Assembly (NCBI GenBank): GCA_014859655.1
Contig: JACUTT010000005.1
Location: forward strand, 1 to 64,000
Direction: 5' to 3'
Source: Campylobacterales bacterium
Lineage (GTDB): Bacteria > Campylobacterota > Campylobacteria > Campylobacterales > Sulfurimonadaceae
Length of the DNA stretch: 64,000 nucleotides
Shown in pieces: positions 1,504 through 1,543 of this stretch; the stretch's first letter is position 1; each line of letters begins with the position of its first letter. Under the pieces are notes generated by a model. That model saw only the letters and a list, made by a program, of their open reading frames with translations. It was not told the DNA's origin and did not search any database. Position numbers and translations under genes: made by a program.

Positions 1504-1543
1504 CACGTAAAAGTAAGATCAGAGATGATCTTACTTTTACGTG
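1504..1543. repeat. Perfect 18-bp inverted repeat in the gdhA leader
   Basis: CACGTAAAAGTAAGATCA (1504-1521), GAGA (1522-1525), then its exact reverse complement (1526-1543). It starts 18 bases before the gdhA start codon, so it falls in the 5' untranslated region and could fold next to the ribosome-binding site or serve as a large protein operator. It is not a typical terminator, as no T-run follows in the gdhA direction. Confidence 0.85.

Follow-up and report, generated by a model that had tools for sequence, protein, structure and literature searches.

A perfect inverted repeat with 19-nt arms lies in the leader of gdhA, a glutamate dehydrogenase gene, in the 64,000-nt stretch of DNA analysed here (the window). 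Most probably it results from a local change of recent date, which may protect the mRNA, and does not represent a known switch. It had been noticed in an earlier reading of the sequence, and that observation was correct and statistically striking. The dyad belongs to a known general kind of leader hairpin and is a solitary, lineage-specific case. The two interpretations attached to it, control of ammonium assimilation and descent from a miniature mobile element, are not supported as stated. The features discussed below are listed in Table 1.

Table 1. Features of the gdhA locus (window coordinates).
Feature	Position	Strand	Remarks
gdhA, NADP-specific glutamate dehydrogenase, 450 aa	137..1486	minus	NCBIfam NF006929, 746 bits (cut-off 536)
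AAGGAG, Shine-Dalgarno-like, outside the stem	1491..1496	minus	Read from the sequence; TCAAGGAGAT is common to the leader of the closest homologue (L059)
Perfect hairpin of the gdhA leader (19-nt arms, 4-nt loop)	1503..1544	minus	mRNA sense: 5' arm 1544-1526, loop 1525-1522, 3' arm 1521-1503
TATAAT, candidate -10 of the gdhA promoter	1562..1567	minus	Position checked; putative promoter role
Solitary end of an IS-like repeat (TTTTAGAGGTGCCC + TTTAGTAAG)	1616..1638	+	Neighbour, not part of the dyad

The arms of the dyad, TCACGTAAAAGTAAGATCA and TGATCTTACTTTTACGTGA (19 nt each, 1503-1521 and 1526-1544), match perfectly and are separated by GAGA on the plus strand, or UCUC in the gdhA mRNA. The sequence-only reading had the match and the loop right and the extent slightly wrong, giving 1504-1543 and arms of 18 nt. 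Sixteen bases (1502-1487) lie between the dyad and the gdhA ATG (1486-1484, minus strand). In the mRNA sense the order is TATAAT (1567-1562), CACCTTATCTATTTTTA, the hairpin, CTTCTC, AAGGAG (1496-1491), ATTT and ATG. The TATAAT would place the transcription start of gdhA near A1555, about 11 nt ahead of the stem. A scan for consensus promoters gave no minus-strand site; its single promoter-like site is on the plus strand (1541-1569). Further upstream on the minus strand, ahead of the candidate -10, the word GCACCATGGGG at 1588-1598 resembles GCACCAAATTGGGG in the gdhA leaders of two homologues (L053 and L060), and a similar word occurs in opposite orientation in the gdhA leader of a third (L114). 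GCACCATGGGG may also resemble NtrC half-sites.

Folded as RNA, the stem alone has a predicted free energy of -26.1 kcal/mol. The 121-nt stretch 1480-1600 gives a z-score of -5.8, and the 58-nt stretch 1495-1552, folded as DNA, a z-score of -10.2. The long stem formed in all folds computed (minimum free energy, centroid and shorter folds). AAGGAG is unpaired in the centroid fold of 1480-1600. In the minimum free energy fold (frequency 0.027), some of its bases are paired with sequence upstream, and in the shorter folds a local pairing of 4 bp includes the GAGA of the ribosome site; an open site can therefore not be taken for granted. Given its place downstream of TATAAT and upstream of AAGGAG, the dyad probably forms a hairpin of about -26 kcal/mol in the 5'-UTR, close to the ribosome site. 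The prediction of a stable mRNA stem next to the ribosome site of an NADP-type gdhA is thus borne out in both structure and position. A stable leader hairpin upstream of the ribosome site is also what characterises mRNA-stabilising stem-loops of 5'-UTRs, co-transcription with gdhA depending here on the putative promoter.

When the 341-nt spacer was shuffled 1000 times with dinucleotides preserved, no perfect arm of more than 11 bp arose. For a 19-bp arm with eight allowed loop sizes, roughly 0.6e-4 to 1.3e-4 occurrences would be expected in 2.17 Mb. We searched a 456-kb sample of the same genome, made up of the 64-kb window and 20 further stretches (392 kb), for perfect hairpins with arms of at least 11 bp and loops of 3-12 nt. 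The sample contains 18, four of which have arms of at least 15 bp: the gdhA dyad, a miniature copy of an IS-like repeat (L151; 19 bp, loop of 12 nt), a 16-bp stem (L156) and a 15-bp stem in the window (60828-60862). The 15-bp dyad is A+T-rich and apparently lies in a spacer, the next frame looking by eye like a membrane protein. The 16-bp hairpin (L156:6586-6620) appears by eye to overlap the last codons and the stop of a frame, and has no T run. Three REP-like hairpins with CAGCAGTGGG / CCCACTGCTG cores (L150:97-122, L150:205-230 and L156:8033-8058), flanked by GTTCGG and with GTACAACACCTCTGGTTT nearby, apparently represent another dispersed repeat.

Of 14 hairpins that were viewed, only two lie ahead of a long same-strand frame whose start has a plausible ribosome site: the gdhA dyad and L143:7110-7141, a stem located 17 nt before a 650-codon frame. 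We also compared 199 roughly called leaders from the same genome (those of frames that have 120 codons or more and a Shine-Dalgarno-like word). The longest stem is the gdhA dyad with 19 bp; the next have 11, 9 and 8 bp, and the rest are about as long as in one shuffle of each leader. This distribution, with the gdhA dyad as the sole outlier, speaks against a genome-wide class of hairpins placed before Shine-Dalgarno sites. The gdhA dyad is an individual oddity, and the sampled part of the genome holds no class of leader hairpins.

The gene itself is patchily distributed. At E <= 1e-80, a gdhA match is present in 3/6 genomes of the genus that were searched, the own genome included, and the two others are 61-62% identical. 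At E <= 1e-100, 171 of the 228 genomes of the family have a match, the best one outside the own genome reaching 77%. A genome from another family of the same order (G537) encodes a protein that is 81% identical, and the closest homologue, on a contig of Epsilonproteobacteria bacterium SpSt-1228 (L059), shows 88% protein identity over 304 residues, where the contig ends. In G+C content, gdhA (0.546) differs little from the next gene (0.574). Judged by sequence similarity, the patchy occurrence of a gdhA of this type suggests gene exchange.

The dyad was absent from all 80 leaders of a first set, consisting of up to 250 nt from the best 80 of at least 596 gdhA relatives. The longest perfect stems in this set have 14 bp (L020, -169 to -138) and 12 bp (L081), neither of them in the same place. 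A second set comprised up to 200 nt from 31 further homologues (29 from the family search and two from the genus search); the dyad was absent from the 30 with a 200-nt leader, the 31st having only 14 nt, and the longest stem has 12 bp (L117, -102 to -73). Some loci of the best-80 list and the family search apparently represent one genome twice. By eye, the 64 nt of leader in the G537 locus (L171) contain no dyad, and a pattern search found none in the G537 genome. At the nucleotide level, the match to the closest homologue starts at 1498, 2 nt ahead of AAGGAG, and does not extend into the dyad; the ribosome site is therefore common to both genes and the dyad is not.

The nearest relative compared is 88% identical, so this absence indicates lineage specificity and not a lack of function. 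It does weigh against a conserved switch for ammonium assimilation, as no leader of a gdhA homologue that we examined has the dyad. The sequence-only reading had itself proposed this comparison and had named absence from close relatives that regulate gdhA in the same way as the outcome that would count against it; with relatives of at most 88% identity, our result comes close to that outcome.

A genome-wide search for the arms had also been proposed at the outset; a miniature element would be expected in several copies. Aligned to its own genome, the segment 1440-1620 had no match elsewhere, and within it the dyad matched on both strands. A 16-nt arm with up to three mismatches occurs at 22 places in the genome (20 for the reversed control); the dyad accounts for two of these, and the best of the remainder has two mismatches. 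The core palindrome (18 specified bases), with up to three mismatches, was found at one other place, with exactly three mismatches (control, 0). The full dyad at up to three mismatches is restricted to the own genome both in the family set (1/228, none in the other 227) and in a class sample that overlaps it (1/397, none in the other 396). Outside the own genome, 13 of the 227 other genomes of the family contain the 19-nt arm with up to two mismatches, at 14 places in all; the reversed control has 11 places. The dyad is thus single-copy, and elsewhere in the genome its arms are no commoner than the control. A lineage-specific, single-copy dyad that is absent from the leaders examined argues against a miniature element as well as against a conserved ammonium switch.

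Searches outside these genomes gave a similar picture. Neither the exact core dyad nor an exact arm was found in viral contigs, and the spacer (1487-1830) had no match in phages. Plasmid records matching 1-1830 number 222, and the five matches listed all lie inside the coding part of gdhA (135-1444). When the spacer was compared with 109 gdhA loci by BLASTN, the best E-value was 0.04; a weak match (L042, E 0.14) covers 1530-1550 and is located outside the gdhA leader of that locus. At the Rfam gathering score no leader RNA was detected, the only match being a tRNA at 41392-41464. A lax threshold (E up to 5) returned 26 matches, all below the gathering score, 16 of them to miRNA families, which long stems attract. 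Judged by title and abstract opening among the matches listed, the open-access literature searched contains no paper on a comparable hairpin in a gdhA leader.

The explanation that we tentatively prefer, with rather less than even confidence, is a lineage-specific inverted duplication by template switch that now acts as a generic 5' barrier and lengthens the life of the gdhA mRNA. It combines a transcription start, a template-switch origin and a stabilising effect, all of which we infer. The dyad would have a single origin within its own lineage, in a local duplication with inversion; the simplest route is a template switch during replication, with 19 bases copied back. In the transcript, the leader of about 70 nt would have the 19-bp hairpin close to its 5' end and the Shine-Dalgarno sequence outside the stem. 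The hairpin would block attack from the 5' end (removal of pyrophosphate, followed by RNase J) and so give a longer-lived gdhA mRNA. Such an effect would be generic, requiring neither a ligand nor an ammonium switch.

We counted in favour of the barrier the position of the stem between TATAAT and AAGGAG, and the unpaired AAGGAG in the centroid fold. The genome contains an RNase J family gene (TIGR00649, 621 bits against a cut-off of 400, in a search where controls also exceeded the cut-off in 9/14 cases). Against the barrier, none of the other stems among the 199 leaders is long, so the device is not in general use in this genome. In E. coli, 5' protection is optimal when only a few unpaired nucleotides precede the stem, and the approximately 11 nt predicted here are more than that. 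A 19-bp duplex could equally be a target of RNase III, which would destabilise the mRNA. A bolder version, in which the template-switch hairpin has been kept because it raises or insulates the expression of a seemingly horizontally acquired gdhA, and a new cis-regulatory RNA structure came from one mutation, strikes us as unlikely. A functional dyad would show cleanly how a strong 5'-UTR structure can arise de novo next to a central gene of nitrogen metabolism, in bacteria with RNase J. A neutral one would be a good gauge of the length that a perfect dyad, here 19 bp, can reach without any meaning.

Neutrality is nearly as likely as the barrier, although it too falls well short of an even chance. 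The dyad would then be a scar without an effect that matters, left by a template switch or fold-back in the recent past and fixed by drift. A single-copy, lineage-specific dyad that is missing from the homologue leaders examined fits such a history, as does the lack of a class of similar leaders in the sampled part of the genome. What speaks against neutrality is that the dyad is perfect over 19 bp and sits between the candidate -10 and the Shine-Dalgarno sequence, removing neither.

We consider it unlikely that the dyad is a DNA operator, at which a dimeric regulator bound to the palindrome just downstream of the promoter represses gdhA. The two-fold symmetry and the site downstream of TATAAT agree with this possibility, but no convincing second site was found in the genome, where the core palindrome has only its one three-mismatch relative, and the dyad is absent from the homologue leaders examined. 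Symmetry over 38 bp is also more than a dimer needs.

Less probable still is a transcription attenuator, in which an inner 9-bp stem and the UUUU of the outer arm would form a leaky leader terminator. The arrangement GUAAGAUCA-UCUC-UGAUCUUAC-UUUU can be read in the minus strand, but the inner stem has three G-C pairs and is followed by four U only, which is not the G+C-rich stem and U run of a terminator. A terminator scan of 1400-1900 gave no site (mean of 0.4 in shuffles), and no Rfam leader RNA reached the gathering score.

Mobile DNA has shaped the gdhA locus, though it is not supported as the source of the dyad. The window starts inside the end of another IS-like copy (41-63), which together with the end at 1616-1638 forms a 23-nt direct repeat around gdhA (96% identical; TTTTAGAGGTGCCC followed by TWTAGTAAG). 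A longer form of this end, AACTGGGGTTTTTAGAGGTGCCC, occurs 73 times in the genome with up to two mismatches (38 + 35; control, 0), often near contig ends. About 10 of the 20 loci of the repeat that we inspected have the solitary short end only. Miniature forms with both ends, and TTTA/TAAA on each side, measure about 50 bp (L103, L106 and L111) or 160 bp (L107). In the spacer between gdhA and an ATPase gene, two 19-nt tandem copies (1721-1758) are 84% alike and share GTGTTGAGACAA.

These IS-like ends on either side of gdhA, and the perfect 19-bp stem of the L151 miniature, are what could suggest that the dyad is the remnant of a miniature mobile element, as the sequence-only reading had offered as an option. 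We regard this as very improbable. Compared by eye, the dyad arms are unlike the IS-like ends nearby; the miniature copies have, or nearly have, the form GGGCACCTCTAAAAACCCC...GGGGTTTTTAGAGGTGCCC; and neither the own genome, the family and the class sample, nor the viral and phage searches yielded a further copy of the dyad or, for viral contigs, an exact arm. An assembly, chimera or binning artefact, conceivable in a draft genome of 85 contigs with an estimated contamination of 4.84%, is the least probable explanation of all, because the two sides of the dyad differ in sequence, a promoter-like and ribosome-site arrangement surrounds it, and the IS-like ends of the contig recur on other contigs of the same genome.

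The barrier that we prefer for the gdhA dyad has precedents. The stem-loops of the E. coli ompA type are generic hairpins that protect an mRNA, as we propose for gdhA; they differ in acting in an RNase E context and in having the stem within a few nucleotides of the 5' end. As for the origin, a study of template switching describes how a perfect RNA stem can be made in one event (PMC8794818). The ancestors of the RNA genes concerned were reconstructed there (PMC8794818), whereas the relatives compared for the gdhA dyad are not close enough for such a reconstruction.

The closest parallel is the 5'-UTR stem-loop of vacA in Helicobacter pylori, a bacterium that has RNase J and no RNase E according to the study of this leader (PMC4843948). 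As described there, disruption of the stem-loop lowered the mRNA level two- to sixfold and the half-life 1.6-fold, a mutant with mirrored arms behaved like wild type, and the authors propose that the stem-loop limits the access of RppH and hence reduces attack by RNase J (PMC4843948). The vacA stem-loop is conserved among clinical isolates, lies near a mapped 5' end and has a half-life effect established by mutants (PMC4843948), whereas the gdhA dyad has a longer perfect stem, occurs in one genome and is known from sequence alone. Common to both is a stem-loop in the leader, between the promoter and the coding start (PMC4843948), in hosts that, judging by relatives of the gdhA host such as Sulfurovum and Epsilonproteobacteria, probably belong to the same phylum.
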